Origin: Saccoglossus kowalevskii
Taxonomy: Eukaryota > Hemichordata > Enteropneusta > Harrimaniidae
NCBI RefSeq assembly: GCF_000003605.2
Contig: NW_003120438.1
Span: forward strand, 48,549-70,973
DNA length: 22,425 nucleotides
Direction: 5' to 3'
This document shows positions 3,168-21,694 of the stretch, one piece after another (position 1 is the first letter of the stretch; the number at the start of each line of letters is the position of its first letter). The translations under genes and the position numbers were made by a program. The notes beneath the pieces were generated by a model, which ran no database searches, was not told where the DNA came from, and worked only from the letters and a program-made list of their open reading frames with translations.

Positions 3168-3802
3168 TGAAATATCAAAGACTGAAAATTTGAAAATTAA
3201 TTAATTATGCAAATTAGGTAATTAATATGTACTGATATTACCCTAAAAACTATCAGGTCTGTGCAGTGTCCTATGACATCTATGTACCAAGTTTCATTGA
3301 AATGTGATGATTACTACTTGAAATATCGAAACCTGAAAATTAATTAATTATGCAAATTAGGGAATTAATATGCACTGATATTACCCTAAAAACTATCAGG
3401 TCTGTGCAGTGTCCTATGACATCTCTGTACCAAATTTTATTGAAATGTGATGATTAGTACTTGAGATATCAGTGGAAAAGCCAAAAAATGATTAATCATT
3501 ATGCAAATTAGGTAATTAATATTGCACAGATTTTTACCCAAAACAAACAAATCTGTGCATTAGATCAGAGCATCTATGTGCCAAGTTTTATCAAAATCCA
3601 ATGAGTGGTTCTTTAGGTTTCAGTGGAACAGTCATGGAACAGCTAAAAATCAGCAAATTATCATGCAAATTAGGTATTTAATATGCATGGATCTTTACCA
3701 AAACCTAATCAAATCTGCGCATTGGCCCAAAGCATCTATGCACCAAGTTTCATCAAGAATCAATGTATGGTTCTTGAGATATCAGTGGAACAGATGGACA
3801 CA

Positions 3803-4359: not shown

Positions 4360-4505
4360 AGGCAAGGGTTTTCCGAACCCGCCTATTCACATAGTTCATA
4401 CTCACCATAGACTCCAGTCAGTCAAAATGATTATTTTGAACTGTAGGCATTAATCAACGATTCTGCCAGGGACGGAGAGATAGAATCTAGGTCAGGGGAA
4501 GCCCC
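4360..4505. repeat. DIRS terminal repeat, 3' end of the element
   Basis: 4400-4505 is an inverted copy of 10089-10193 (ccatagactcc...gtcagtcaaaatga...taggtcaggggaagccc). The outermost 40 bases (aggcaagggttttccgaacc...) are specific to this end, as is normal for DIRS terminal repeats. Confidence 0.9.
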
Positions 4506-4664: not shown

Positions 4665-4789
4665 GGAGTCTATGGTGGGTATGAACTATGTGAACAGGTG
4701 GGTTCGGAGAACCCTCGCCTAAATTCACTACGTTCAATTACCCATCATAGACTCAGGTCAGTCAAAATGACTATTTTGAACTGTAGGCA
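4665..4789. repeat. DIRS internal complementary region (ICR)
   Basis: Two halves meet at 4720/4721. 4665-4720 is the reverse complement of 4360-4415 (about 5 differences in 56, all transitions). 4721-4789 is the reverse complement of 10144-10212 (about 4 differences in 69). Together they form the complement of a circular junction of the element ends. In DIRS replication this region is believed to template joining of the two ends into a circle. Confidence 0.9.
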
Positions 4790-6802: not shown

Positions 6803-7925
6803 AATGTAATGTAATGTCATAGTCTTTATTGAAGTCATATCCTAAAAATGGACATAGATCTACATGCAAGTACAATAAAGCATGGGTGTCATTCCATGTC
6901 AGAAACATGATACACTAGAAGATACACTAGTATAAAAGAACTAAACTAAACTAAACACAACTAAAACAAACCCGAAAGTGGGTTAGAAATGCAAATTAAC
7001 TAAGTAAATGTTAGGATTACTTATTTAGATATCTGTGAAGCAGCTGTTTGCTTTCTCTTATGTTGAAACATTCGTATAAATATTTTGCTAGACATTTTAG
7101 CATGACAGTATTCTTTGTGCCTAGTATGTTAATAAAGCCCTCAGTGTTGCCCTCAGAGCACTGTCTAATTGTGTTGAGAAGGATTTGTCTTTCACGTTTG
7201 TATAACTGACATTTTAACAGAAAGTGCTCTTCATCTTCAATATCATTTGTATTGCATACAGGACAGCTTCTTTCGGTAATGTCAATTTTATGGTATTTGC
7301 CCATTTCAATTTGTAAAACATGTGCGCTTAATCTTAGTTTGGTCATTGATAATCTGTGTCATTGGTCAGCAGATAATTTTCAAGTCCAAATTCAGTTTTT
7401 AATTTTCTATAAGTACGTAGTTTATTTCTGTGGTTAATACCTTTATTGTCATTGTTTAGAGAATTCCTATATTGTTTATTTTGAAGTTTGTTTCAAGTGC
7501 TGTAGTAACATTATTTATTAGGTATTTGTTCTCATTAATCTTTACATTTTCCCACTCATGTTCCATATTAAAGTCTTTCAGAATTGTTTTAATATAATTG
7601 ACCCAATTTTGGCTGTCTGAGTTATCCATATGGATTGCCAATCTGTATGCTTCATTTATGAGGCTGTTTTCAGGCATATTACGCAATCTCAACCAATATT
7701 TAAACATCTGTCTGATACATGTAGTTATTAGGGGGTAGCGTCCCAATTCTAATAAGCAGGCAAGGTATGTGGTCCTGCAGTTTACTTTCAGTATGTACTT
7801 GCAAAATTTTAAGTGCATTTTTTCCATTGGTGACAAAAAGTGCATCAGATAGTTTTTATTTTTTCTTATGTCACATGTTCAAATTTCTGCACAATATGTG
7901 AGTATTTGTTTGATCATAGTGTCAA
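6803..7925 (-). mobile_element. 5'-truncated LINE inserted in the DIRS RNase H
   Basis: A non-LTR retrotransposon 3' fragment of 1123 bases, in the same orientation as the DIRS. The matching heptamer acattgt flanks it at 6796-6802 and 7926-7932. The 3' end is not poly(A) but a short repeat (cattacattacatt on the minus strand) after an aataaag motif, a tail type seen in CR1/L2/RTE-like rather than L1 elements. The DIRS RNase H reading stops at 7933 and resumes at 6795. Confidence 0.85.
7014..7917 (-). pseudogene. LINE ORF2 C-terminal domain
   Basis: The minus-strand reading begins FDTMIKQILTYCAEI at the truncation point. It continues MEKMHLKFCKYILKVNCRTT and LELGRYPLITTCI, the post-RT block (HLKFCKYxLxV...ELGRYPL) common in animal LINEs. 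A frameshift around 7346-7460 separates it from MTKLRLSAHVLQIEMGKYHK and the zinc-binding CPVC...DEEHFLLKCQLY motif (CxxC...HxxxxC), ending at a stop near 7017. The RT palm itself was lost by 5' truncation. The LINE clade is not resolved. Confidence 0.85.
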
Positions 7926-10088: not shown

Positions 10089-10212
10089 GGGCTTCCCCTG
10101 ACCTAGATTCTATCTCTCAGTCACCGGCAGAATCGCTGATTAATGCCTACAGTTCAAAATAGTCATTTTGACTGACAGGAGTCCATGGTGGGTAATTGAA
10201 CGTAGTGAATTT
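10089..10212. repeat. DIRS terminal repeat, 5' end of the element
   Basis: Inverted partner of 4400-4505. The outermost bases (ending gaacgtagtgaattt) are specific to this end and recur in reverse complement at 4721-4740 in the internal complementary region. Confidence 0.9.
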
Positions 10213-16804: not shown

Positions 16805-19263
16805 CTAACATTTTAAAGAAAATGGGCGTCAGCAAGTAATAAAAGTAATACATGTACACATGTACTTTGTAATGTACATATTCGGGATGGCAGAAATCAT
16901 ATAATTTGTTGTTAATAATTTTCATTGGATGCAAATATGGATGGATCAATTGCCAGGGAGTCACAAGGATGAATTATCTATAATTCAAGCAATTGCTTCA
17001 AACATATACCACAAGTGTTTTGACATCATACAAGGCGAACAAAACATTAACATATGCACACATACAGGTTATTAATTTATAAGGTACAAATGTAATAAAA
17101 TTTATACAATAACGATAGCATGCATTACAGAAAGACCGGACTGTGATTACAGCTGCAGAGTATACCAATAATCAATCAAACATATTAAAGATAGACTAAA
17201 CATTTACTGTCTAACTTTATTACTGATCAAAGCATATCAAGTTTTCAAATCACAAACCAGTATTGTTGTTGTTTAAATTTGAAATTTGTATTTACAGAAT
17301 CACATGCAATAGCACATCTACAGTGATTATACATCAAACAGACCTGAGACATAATTGTTGACACGTTTTTGTTAAGCAAAAAGCCACGAGACATGTTCTT
17401 GCCTCTCAAATAGTGTTTTAATTTTATTCACTCCAGTTATCATGTTCAGTACTGAACTTCATAACCATGGTATTTGGATCAGTGGAAATGTTGACAGGGA
17501 AAAACAACATATTTGAGGGGAAAAAACAAGTCTCATGGTTCTCTCACTCTCATCAAGATCTCAGAGTCTATTTCTATATCTATATGTCACTGACTACATT
17601 TATACATTAGAGAATCAAATCAGGAATGCAAATAATTATAGTTCAAGTTCAAAGCAGGGTGCATATAAGACATAGTTTACAAAACATGTATATATATTAA
17701 GTAAAATAATAACATATTGCATGCATTAAATGTATGGTCAAAATAAATCATATATGTATACAATTGTTGGCTTACATGTGCTTCTAATAGAACTAATATC
17801 ATAATGGTAAACAAATAAGTAAGCTGTTTGTCTAAAATTCATTCAGTCTAACCAAATCAGATCATAACCAAACATCATGCATTAATAATAACATTTAAAA
17901 TATTATTATGAGTGTTAGTTACATATAAACACACAGAGAACAGAACACATTTCACATCATCCCCATCAGGACACAATAGCATATGAATTTGATTTATGGA
18001 CCAATTCAACAAAAAATATAACAAACATTACATCTGCAAATTTAACACCTTTTACATACATGTAAGCATTATATTGTACAGATTTAATAAATCAAATTTA
18101 GCAATCTTTGTTTAAATATAGACTGGCGCAGTCGGGCTTAGATGATTGTCAATTAGAACACTCATTAACATAACTACCCGTTGAAAAACTGACGGGTTCT
18201 TGCAGGGTGAATATGAGTTGTGTCTCACTCTCACCATTTCTTCCTGGCGATGCCTTTGATTCTGGACAAAGTGCGGACAAGTGCACACAAAAGAAAAATG
18301 ATGAGTGAAGGTGGCAGAGAATGAGGTTAGCAAAGAAAAAAAATATATGGGTTAAAAAAATATAATGTAAACTGATGATGAAACCAGTATATGTTATACA
18401 AATGAAGATAGCAGGTATTTTACATGCAGCAATGGGTACATATATTGTATAGCAGACATTTAGCAAAACAGAAACACATTTGATAGTTGAGACCAATAAC
18501 ATATGACCTATTATTATAAATGTAGACTATACACACAAAGCATGTTTGTATGCATGATTCTATAGATAGAATACATGTATGTAAGTATAAGGCCGAGAAT
18601 AAAAAATAATTGTGTTTCTCTGGAGAACAGGTCCTCCTACTCTAGACATGTTTTGATAAACAATAGAGCTCAATTATCATAACAATAGACCCAATAGAAG
18701 TGATTAACATATTGTAATGTTATGCAAATTAGCTAACGTGTCAAGCTGTTTCCAGGGTGAAACCATAGACCCTGGTGAAACTGAAACCTTTTTTTTATGC
18801 AAATATTTGATTTTAATTTTATTTTTAGGCAAATTAACCAAGTCCTACTCACAAAAATGAATTTTTAATTTACAGTATATATGTACTTCCTCTAATGCTG
18901 TGAATGACTTTGTGTTCATTAATTTTTACCCACTCTGAAGTAGTAGATGACCAGACTAAGGAAATCCAATAAACTGACTACCGGTAACTTGCAGTTAGTA
19001 AATATTTGATTTTTCTGGCTGTGTATTGAAAATCATCATAAGTGTATTCCTTTCTAGTAATTTTGTTACTCTTTAATCAGAGCATGGAGCAAATTATCAG
19101 AGCTACACTCCTAAGGATACTATCCTCTCAGAGTAGCGGCATAAATAATAGAGTAGCGACCCGCTACGCTAAAATGTTTTGGATAGCATTCACTCCATTG
19201 ACCCATGCAAATGATGAATCAAGCAAATTGATAAGCCGATGTGTAACATAATTGCTCTTATTA
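16805..19263. other. Dynein intron 1, downstream part
   Basis: AT-rich intron sequence of about 2.46 kb. It shows an imperfect hairpin ccagggtgaaaccatagaccctgg (near 18752) and a hairpin gtagcgacccgctac (near 19153). A tRNA-like phrase at 18122-18200 (ggcgcagtcgg, then gggttcttgcag) is not convincing as a SINE head. No exon fits the dynein phase pattern. Confidence 0.55.
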
Positions 19264-19360
19264 GGCTGAAAACAAAAATATCTCTGTTTCTCGTTTCCGT
19301 GTGCATCATTTTGAACTATACGGTATGCGGCTCGAACGTTTTTTCCTTCTGAAGCATTCC

Positions 19361-19518
19361 AAAATGCTCTAGACTGTCGACAGTCCCTCTGGCCTTACGT
19401 GTGTGTGTTTTTTTTATTAATATTAATATTAATCAAACGCCGTAGGCGTTTGCGAAATGCCGAAGGCATTTCAAGCGAGGGCCGTAAGGCCCGAGAGACT
19501 GTTAATGTTATAGCCTGC
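19361..19518. repeat. Left inverted arm with hairpin array
   Basis: Almost identical in reverse complement to 20115-20266. In order it holds the 14-bp palindrome gactgtcgacagtc, a (TG)n/T-run, and (attaat)n. Three adjacent hairpins follow: caaacgccgtaggcgtttg, gaaatgccgaaggcatttc and gggccgtaaggccc. It ends gagagactgtt...tatagcctgc. Confidence 0.9.
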
Positions 19519-19706
19519 TGCGCCACCACTCGCCACTGTAGAGAAATTCTCCTGTAGCGTACCATCATGATTGACAGGCAGAGTGATGTCATAAAAATGC
19601 TAACCAATCACAAGTCACGCAGTCCCAGGTCAACAGGAAGTAAAAAAAATTGAGCCACCAGACGACGCAATAGTTTATAAACTTCGTTCAGTGCACTGCT
19701 TTGAAG

Positions 19707-20009
19707 ATGGCTTGTGACGATGCAGTTTCGCTGGCGTTGAAGAAACTTGGGTATGAAAGTATTCGACCAATCCAGCGACAAGTCATTGATGGCTATTTGC
19801 AGAAGAAAGATGTTTTTCTCACAGCGCCGACTGGCAGTGGCAAGTCGCTGACTTATGAAATGGCGCCATTCCTGCTGGACAGTATCGGTGACTTTGCCGA
19901 CGAACCATCATCCATTATTTTGATTGTATCGCCACTGGTCGCCCTGATGCAAGAACAGGCAGAAAACGATCTATACTCGGCGAGACGATCAAAGTCATGC
20001 GTGACATAA
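19707..20009 (+). pseudogene. RecQ-like SF2 helicase, N-terminal fragment
   Basis: The frame from the ATG at 19707 to the TAA at 20007-20009 gives 100 residues. It shows ALKKLGYESIRPIQRQVIDGYL (Q-motif-like motif 0 of RecQ helicases), LTAPTGSGKSLTYEMAPFLL (motif I/Walker A with the catalytic Lys) and IILIVSPLVALMQEQ (motif Ia). RecQ family helicases unwind DNA 3' to 5' and need about 350-400 residues with DEVH, SAT and motifs IV-VI, all absent here. Homology stops after MQEQ and the frame closes 16 codons later, so this is a truncated copy. The reading up to that point is unbroken, suggesting a recent capture. The region before the ATG (19520-19706) looks like an accompanying 5' region. Confidence 0.8.
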
Positions 20010-20114
20010 AAAAACCTCGCGATTTGACCTTTGCATAACAGTTTAACTCCGCCCATATGCAAATTATTACTACGTCATCGAGATGCATGCATAATTAATA
20101 GCAAGGCCAGTCCT

Positions 20115-20266
20115 GCAGGCTATAACAGTCTCTCGGGCCTTACGGCCCTCGCTTGAAATGCCTTCGGCATTTCGCAAACGCCTAAGGCGTTTGATTAATA
20201 TTAATAATAAAAAAAAACACACACACACGTAAGGCCAGAGGGACTGTTGACAGTCTAAAAATGCTC
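20115..20266. repeat. Right inverted arm with hairpin array
   Basis: Mirror of 19361-19518. It differs by a 5-bp indel after actgtt, a changed loop (cctaagg instead of the gta loop), a shorter attaat run and a one-base change in the outer palindrome (gactgttgacagtc). The three hairpin stems are fully conserved between arms. Confidence 0.9.
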
Positions 20267-20381
20267 TTGTACTCGCACTTGTCTTAAATCCCCCCCCCCC
20301 CACCATTTTAGCTCAGTATTAAAAAAAAATTCGCCTCATTTTAAAATTTCAAAACGAGAAACAGAGATTTTTTTCCTGGCC

Positions 20382-21151
20382 TTAGCAATGTTCACCTAAA
20401 TCAAAGTTTCTATGGTGAAACAACGGAATATTTGAACGATTTAGTACAACAAATATATTTCTTGTTTTATATGTGGTTGATTGAAGATGTGCTTCTATTA
20501 TTAGAGCAAACAATGTACCTGCTTATCCAATTGTTAAGTTTGATCTCTTTTCTCTACTTGGTGTTATGAGAATGCTAGAACACATTGAGTTACAATTTGA
20601 TAGAGAACAACTGAACTCAACCAGATTCTAACTTGGCCAAGAAAATAATGCACAACTTGGCCAGTTGTGAATGTCGAGGTGTAAACTGGCCATTGGTCAA
20701 AAATTACCACCTTCTTTCATGTCTGTTGCCGTGGCGGCATTTCATTTCCAAATGTTATATGCTACACAGCACGCCCAGTGACGCATACTGTAGAAGGAAC
20801 TGTTCTTTTTGCAACCAATAACTTAGTACTGATACATTTTATCTACACAATGTAGGAGTACACCCAGGGTTTGTGCTAGTGTCTTGGCAAGACGAGTCCC
20901 ACTTACAAAGTTTTAAGAAATTGAAATTTGACCCCTGATAACTTTATTAGAGATTGGACCCCAGCTTGTCTGAAAAACTGGGTCCCTCTTCAATAATTGG
21001 AGTCCGGGAAGCAAAATATGGGGTTAACGCAATCCCTGACACCAATTCAATTTTCATCGCCTGTATTTCCTGGGCACTATTTAGTTGTGAACACTAAATG
21101 CATCAAATGCCTACAACATTAATATGCCCTGGGTATATATTCAATCTTTAC
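20382..21151. other. Dynein intron 1, upstream part
   Basis: Intron sequence up to the exon 1 donor. Contains an imperfect hairpin ggaccccagcttg...ctgggtcc near 20955-20985. No gene recognised; the small frame at 20633 is not supported. Confidence 0.55.
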
Positions 21152-21694
21152 CTGTTTGCCGGATGTAGCATGTATGCTAGTCGTTTCTGCCAGCGCTGCT
21201 GCATATTTGTCCATCTGACTCAAAAACTGGGCTGTGTTCTCTTCACTACACTGCCCCCAATCTTTTTGGGCTCGTATCAGCGGTATATACAGATCAGTGA
21301 GCAAGGAATTGAGATTCTCGACTGTGCTGTGTCTCAGCTCACCACAGAAGATTTCCCTTTCCATGCGCACTGCATCGACCTCGCGATCAACGTTATGCCG
21401 TAAAAAATACAAACAAGTCGTCTCCTCGATGTTGACATCTTTGATGTGAGCCAGGGAACCAACGACGTGAAGTTGACGAGTGCTTTGCAAAGGTGCCACA
21501 CCACCGGTCGTTTGTGGCCTGTCAGAGTAGAAAAACAATTTATTAGGCCCACCAGGTCCGAGGAACTGGTTTATCATCTCCAGCGTCTCGGGCTCAGTGA
21601 GGAAATCTTCTAGCAAAGTCGGGTTGTCGTGGAACCCGCCGATGTGGAATGATTCCTGAATTTTCGTCGCAATCCACCAGTGTCGTTCATCCAT
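21152..21694 (-). CDS. DNAH5/DNAH8-like: Axonemal dynein heavy chain (DNAH5/DNAH8 class), coding exon 1
   Basis: This exon encodes residues 1-181 of an outer-arm dynein heavy chain, the ATP-driven motor of cilia and flagella. The N-terminal tail encoded here binds intermediate and light chains and docks the motor on the A-tubule; the AAA motor lies outside the window. The text starts MDERHWWIATKIQESF and runs through an FLGPGGPNKLFFY segment and an LTDLYIPLIRAQKDWG segment. These have the pattern of the extreme N-terminus of DNAH5/DNAH8 relatives (ARH..., then a FYY/FFY strand, then LLSDIFIPAL). The donor CAG|GTAAAG follows codon 181, phase 0. An in-frame TAG lies 9 bases upstream of the ATG. 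That TAG also forms a good splice acceptor (T-rich tract then TAG|TTC at 21700/21701), so a short upstream exon is possible. Assignment to DNAH5 versus DNAH8 is not resolved; the dynein family call is firm because the later exons fit too. Confidence 0.9.

Follow-up and report, generated by a model that had tools for sequence, protein, structure and literature searches.

Kolobok elements use TTAA as their target, and PIF/Harbinger elements use a 3-bp TWA target and carry GGC-type ends. The AcademH lineage of the Academ superfamily was reportedly defined by Kojima in 2020 (Mob DNA 11:15). The presence of a RecQ helicase in Academ is reported in a passage of PMC3627910, and target duplications of 9 or 10 bp for AcademH and of 3 or 4 bp for AcademX are given in a passage of PMC10045372, citing Kojima 2020. 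AcademX, as described in such passages, belongs to the same Academ superfamily but carries a nuclease instead of a helicase. An excerpt of PMC10799480 deals with the fungal helicases of AcademH and KolobokH. In a section of PMC9587614, KolobokH is reported from fungi only, its RecQ following the transposase domain on the downstream side, and the RecQ of a rhodophyte Kolobok is placed on the complementary strand.

The DNA analysed here (the window, a stretch of 22,425 nt, to which all positions refer unless stated otherwise) was from Saccoglossus kowalevskii (GCF_000003605.2, contig NW_003120438.1, positions 48,549 to 70,973 of the forward strand). Region 19264-20381 of the window consists of two nested transposons and not of one: a RecQ-carrying copy, shortened and non-autonomous, sits within a second, unrelated small transposon (MITE). 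Both elements look like known kinds, the RecQ-carrying one like a rare and little-studied group. With good though not full confidence, the inner 888 bp are assigned as a non-autonomous internal-deletion derivative of an AcademH-kind DNA transposon, lying in an older MITE; membership in AcademH itself is likely. The coordinates of the respective features are collected in Table 1.

Table 1. Features of the nested transposons and their flanks, with positions in the window
Feature	Position	Strand	Basis
TTA, target-site duplication of outer MITE, left	19261-19263		read directly
Left half of outer MITE, GGC terminus; last 9 bases are the target site of the inner element	19264-19369		genome matches
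Outer inverted repeat (23 nt), left copy	19274-19296		96% complementary to 20352-20374
AAAATGCTC, 9-bp target-site duplication of inner element, left	19361-19369		9/9 in register
Inner element, 888-bp non-autonomous RecQ-carrying DNA transposon, AcademH-like	19370-20257	+	arms, duplication, sister copies
Left terminal inverted repeat with TAGACTGTC as its terminal motif	19370-19520	+	arm alignment, folding; motif layout by eye
Region upstream of helicase ORF	19521-19706	+	read from letters
Putative CCAAT	19604-19608	+	by eye
Putative TATA-like TTTATAAA	19674-19681	+	by eye
100-codon ORF; codons 1 to about 85 are RecQ helicase start	19707-20009	+	Pfam, PDB, comparison with C4505 copy
Internal deletion junction (about 589 joined to about 1553 of C4505 copy)	19958-19961		comparison with C4505 copy
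Right terminal inverted repeat	20112-20257	-	arm alignment, folding
AAAATGCTC, 9-bp target-site duplication of inner element, right	20258-20266		read directly
Right half of outer MITE, GGCC terminus, 23-nt outer repeat at 20352-20374	20267-20381		letters, inverted pair
TTA, target-site duplication of outer MITE, right	20382-20384		read directly

The inner arms (19370-19504 and 20123-20257) are 135 nt long and 96% complementary without gaps, and lengthen to about 150 nt once the left arm is allowed a 6-nt insertion, which confirms the nearly identical inverted arms of about 150 bp described in an earlier note on this DNA. The unit that they enclose begins with TAGAC and ends with GTCTA, and is bounded on both sides by the 9-bp direct repeat, which matches at every base in register. 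The outer inverted pair is shorter (23 nt, 96%).

The other contents of the window were recorded alongside. The nested transposons are located downstream of an exon-like ORF (21119-21694, minus strand) that matches the beginning of a dynein heavy chain of the flagellar outer arm (7kzm_C, 7.4e-12). Between 4355 and 10212, GC-rich minus-strand ORFs are enclosed by repeat pieces, both inverted and direct (4399-4504 versus 10089-10194, 92%; 4721-4789 versus 10144-10212, 94%), and this part was judged by eye as a DIRS-like retroelement with tyrosine-recombinase-like and RNase H-like ORFs, for which no Pfam match was found. At 7017-7346 (minus strand), a weak match to zf-RVT (0.0073, under its cut-off) suggests a LINE remnant, and at 3186-3783 a unit of about 142 nt is present in four tandem copies, 61-100% identical to the reference copy. 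An Rfam scan of the window at the gathering threshold gave no match to a structured RNA.

The ORF of the inner element (100 aa) matches the Pfam family DEAD (PF00270, 3.2e-12), and the nearest solved structure by PDB search is E. coli RecQ (1oyw, 8.2e-8). Of the helicase, it holds no more than the initial part, as the earlier note had stated; the note had not separated off the last 15 codons or so, which are non-helicase and stem from the opposite end of the element, across the deletion junction. A peptide pattern of the ORF matched 14 stretches of the viral_contigs collection, none of which was confirmed, and region 19264-20381 had no match in the 'phages' collection.

A longer relative is a copy on contig C4505, which has the same ends as the window element, a length of 1,853 bp and an 8-bp duplication. 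Its RecQ start, on the plus strand, is longer (123 codons counted from its ATG), and a second gene, a minus-strand ORF of 230 codons (listed from TTG), is convergent with it. Over query residues 1-87, the helicase ORF of the window shares 95% identity with the C4505 protein, and the two copies are 98.3% identical across 595 bp, so the family has moved fairly recently. In the coordinates of the C4505 copy, the deletion junction is about 589|about 1553 in the window, 243|1302 on both C3219 and C3953, and 384|1534 on C2563, which makes three distinct junctions in the four copies whose junction is readable; the copies on C3896, C3048 and C4622 have one end in the stretch examined. The three junctions go back to distinct internal deletions within a shared parent layout, a pattern that abortive gap repair would be expected to leave. 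On contig C1554, a left arm resembling that of the window (score 125.5 versus 88 for the best of 200 shuffles) precedes a degraded RecQ in which pieces of DEAD (7.8e-8) and Helicase_C (7.3e-6) are recognisable; the left end and RecQ were the parts read there. Of the options in the earlier note, derivation by deletion from a larger RecQ-carrying transposon family is upheld by the C4505 copy with the same arms, a longer RecQ and a second gene, and is also backed by the C1554 RecQ and by the RecQ fragments in other TAGACT-ended elements; the arms and the helicase do co-occur elsewhere, namely in the sister copies.

The genome was also searched with the RecQ protein. Thirty of the 34 matches were cut out for inspection, giving 28 loci other than the C4505 copy and the window (2.3-3.4 kb each). 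Inverted arms bracket the RecQ piece in 8 of the 28 (C2716, C814, C2261, C3901, C3744, C1549, C4485 and C4505:901k), and a TAGACT-type end is present on one or both sides of all eight, the second arm of C2261 probably not being the true end; bracketing arms were not found around RecQ at the other 20 loci within these stretches. The RecQ pieces begin at a similar place, roughly 280-445 bp from one end, in the elements ending in TAGACTTGC and TAGACTGGC, with 41-55% amino-acid identity. Target duplications were scored in the seven elements with both ends readable, the length being taken as the best in-register match among 7-11. They matched at 9/9 positions in three elements, 8/8 in one, 7/8 in one and 7/9 in two; the best length was thus 9 bp in five of the seven and 8 bp in two, the latter below the published 9-10, and the 8-9 bp target sequences differ among the seven.

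A genome search with the second gene of the C4505 copy gave 43 matches. Fragments of this gene lie opposite RecQ at 4 of the 28 loci (C814, C3744, C1549 and C2847), and of two further loci fetched from the second-gene matches, C1603 has RecQ opposite and C2444 has no RecQ match; when the contigs of the 43 second-gene matches were compared with the 34 RecQ matches, only C4505 and C3744 had the two adjacent. The predicted protein is Cys-rich with an N-terminal CxxC...CxxC domain, its predicted structure has a mean pLDDT of 52.6, too low for use in a fold search, and it had no Pfam match below an E value of 0.06. A GT that may be a splice donor of the second gene was noted by eye near L031:1973. 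The second gene most likely encodes the transposase.

DUF6589 (PF20231), which we take to be the Academ transposase domain, was not named in any paper found by the literature search. The genome search for it gave 11 matches on 9 contigs and none in 14 control genomes. On four of the nine contigs (C3659, C1306, C14 and C1561) RecQ lies 3-5 kb from DUF6589 and is convergent with it each time, and on the other five no RecQ match is present among the 34. At C3659 a largely open RecQ (DEAD 2.2e-20, Helicase_C 5.2e-16) is followed downstream, on the other strand, by two ORFs matching DUF6589 (1.9e-11 and 1.4e-8), and at C1306 one ORF matches it at 3.9e-29; with one C1306 exon as the query, 9 matches on 9 contigs were obtained, the four contigs above included. 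The DUF6589 gene convergent with RecQ is a putative transposase. No element ends were found for these loci in the stretches examined of C3659 and C1306, and DUF6589 was not found within an element with TAGACT ends: none of the contigs with DUF6589 matches is among those of the 43 second-gene matches. Separately, a gene of the DUF6589 type, represented by three ORFs and beginning with an N-terminal CxxC...CxxC, was found at C1075:7000-11598, on a contig without a RecQ match among the 34; the first 397 aa of this gene gave 10 matches on 6 contigs, and it is a possible AcademX-type element.

Since it combines RecQ with 9-bp duplications, the window element is nearest to AcademH. The RecQ-type SF2 helicase of that lineage is represented by its start in the window and by its later motifs on C1554, and the window duplication (9/9) falls within the 9-10 bp of AcademH. 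A helicase carried on a DNA transposon and 9-bp duplications are thus common to both, and the same genome has RecQ convergent with DUF6589 at four loci. The likeness is incomplete, however: DUF6589 was seen only outside the TAGACT-ended copies, two copies have 8-bp duplications, and strongly self-folding arms were seen here, in the subfamily ending in TAGACTGTC only. KolobokH was considered as well. It too is a DNA transposon with a RecQ helicase, and the complementary-strand RecQ of the rhodophyte Kolobok, in the section mentioned above, matches the layout here; that section, however, places KolobokH only in fungi and its RecQ downstream of the transposase domain. KolobokH was rejected on its target, the targets being 8-9 bp long and varied in the seven elements and not TTAA.

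The TAGACT group could instead be a separate RecQ-carrying superfamily outside Academ, with the Cys-rich second gene as its transposase and a convergent likeness to AcademH, a reading that we regard as unlikely. It would account for a second gene that has no Pfam match and no detectable tie to DUF6589 (an hhalign comparison with the beginning of the DUF6589 gene on C1075 gave a probability of 0.5%), for the lack of any listed contig with both second-gene and DUF6589 matches, and for the 8-bp duplications beside the 9-bp ones; moreover, KolobokH also has RecQ (in the section of PMC9587614), so the helicase was probably acquired more than once. Against it, the RecQ pieces at the DUF6589 loci are relatives of those in the TAGACT group, C3659, C1306, C14 and C1561 being among the 34 matches obtained with one query; the convergent two-gene layout is common to both sets; and the 9-bp duplication fits AcademH as given in the passage of PMC10045372. 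Assignment to AcademH is accordingly preferred as the likely one.

The left arm (135 nt) was searched in the 572-Mb genome, and the best 40 of 55 candidates, the two of the window included, were scored. Eleven of these 40, distributed over 8 contigs, span the full 135 nt at 96-100%; one on C2563 covers 41-135 at 99%; three break off at 72-87 nt; two have nearly the full arm length at 70-75%; and 23 are confined to the inner hairpin part (within 46-135) at 79-94%. The inner arms are no chance occurrence. Because 23 of the best 40 hold the inner hairpin part alone, part of the arm also exists without the element, and the hairpin part (19433-19504) may belong to a repeat family wider than the TAGACTGTC element. 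Self-folding of the two inner arms of the window was stronger than that of dinucleotide shuffles (z -6.7 and -6.3, respectively; none of 200 shuffles as good). With mononucleotide shuffles, the arms of three TAGACTGTC copies (n=6) gave z of -5.8 to -7.8, versus +0.9 to -2.5 for the eight arms of four other elements of two end types, and strong folding was thus rejected as a trait of the whole group; hairpins that are not common to all elements speak against a required role. By eye, the TAGACTGTC arms have the terminal motif, an adjoining inverted copy, a direct copy about 125 bp in and two further internal hairpins, and the TAGACTTGC and TAGACTGGC elements have a similar motif layout in arms without notable folding. 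This repeated subterminal motif may be a transposase binding site. A more far-reaching proposal is that the TAGACT-ended elements are a distinct animal RecQ lineage, that their CxxC...CxxC second gene is a transposase unrelated to DUF6589, and that the three-copy arm motif of the TAGACTGTC subfamily (direct, inverted, and direct about 100-130 bp in) extrudes hairpins which are unwound by the element's own RecQ during transposition; we consider this combination decidedly unlikely.

Capture of a host RecQ gene fragment by a non-autonomous transposon, the Pack-MITE-like option of the earlier note, is very improbable. Long inverted repeats that enclose only the 5' end of the helicase and its upstream sequence are what it would predict, but the helicase start recurs in elements with other arms, at the distance and amino-acid identity given above for the TAGACTTGC and TAGACTGGC elements; the longer C1554 copy, with a similar left arm, keeps later helicase motifs; and the second gene accompanies RecQ in several elements. 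The evaluation was done by comparison among the transposon RecQ copies.

The outer sequence is a separate repeat, unrelated to the inner element. Its left half (19264-19369) was found in its own genome in 163 candidates, the best 40 of which, the window included, have 80-100% identity. None of the other 28 loci with inner arms, which represent 25 places of about 3 kb each, has the outer arms. Among the matches listed, the inner and outer repeats share three contigs, namely that of the window, C3226 and C1595; they lie about 48 and 64 kb apart on the latter two, respectively, and within 40 kb of each other in the window only. Because the inner element has its own 9-bp duplication and the outer arms are absent at the other loci examined, a RecQ-type element is taken to have been inserted into a MITE. 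The earlier note had treated 19264-20381 as one element and had taken its GGC ends and TTA flank as a hint of PIF/Harbinger. As one copy was read, the outer repeat does have a 3-bp TTA duplication, GGC/GGCC ends and the 23-nt inverted repeat, and shares with PIF/Harbinger-type MITEs the TTA flanks, the ends and the many copies of its left half; the hint thus holds for the outer MITE, but not for the inner element, whose 9-bp duplication differs from a 3-bp target. A single composite PIF/Harbinger element enclosing the helicase, for which the outer repeat, its ends and the TTA on both sides would speak, is extremely improbable in view of the inner duplication, the outer arms missing at the 28 loci, and the at least 40 matches of the outer left half, of which, among the matches listed, only that of the window has an inner repeat within 40 kb. 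Co-occurrence of the outer repeat with the helicase, also looked for, was not found elsewhere in the loci examined. Two MITEs flanking a helicase pseudogene, another option of the note, were rejected, as one single 9-bp duplication surrounds the whole 888-bp unit.

The KP type of the P element is a repressor of transposition. That the truncated 100-codon ORF is likewise maintained, for example as such a repressor, is scarcely credible: the frame is open, CCAAT and TATA-like motifs are putatively present upstream (by eye) and the identity to the C4505 protein is high, but the copy, 98.3% identical to C4505 across 595 bp, is so young that its frame could be open without any selection, and its junction differs from those of all three other copies with a readable junction.

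For the preferred reading of an internally deleted AcademH-kind element in a MITE, the following course is proposed. The full element would have two convergent genes starting near opposite ends, one for the RecQ-type helicase and the other most likely for a large transposase, which a fuller copy would supply in trans to the short ones. The transposase would recognise the TAGACT-type ends and the repeated subterminal motifs, move the DNA and leave a target duplication of 8-9 bp, and we infer a role of the helicase in this transposition. Short copies would arise when gap repair following excision is aborted and the central parts of both genes are lost, and the window copy would have been inserted fairly recently into an older small TTA-flanked, Harbinger-like MITE.

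DNA transposons encoding helicases are uncommon, and the window element adds a member to this known kind. With several deletion derivatives, at least three TAGACT end types and candidate loci with RecQ and DUF6589, the genome is a source from which the ends of the group, its target duplication and its minimal substrate could be defined. In genome annotation, such pieces may be mistaken for RecQ genes or pseudogenes of the host. Should the helicase prove to act on the self-folding arms, the family would provide a testable case of a transposon-borne helicase for its own structured ends.
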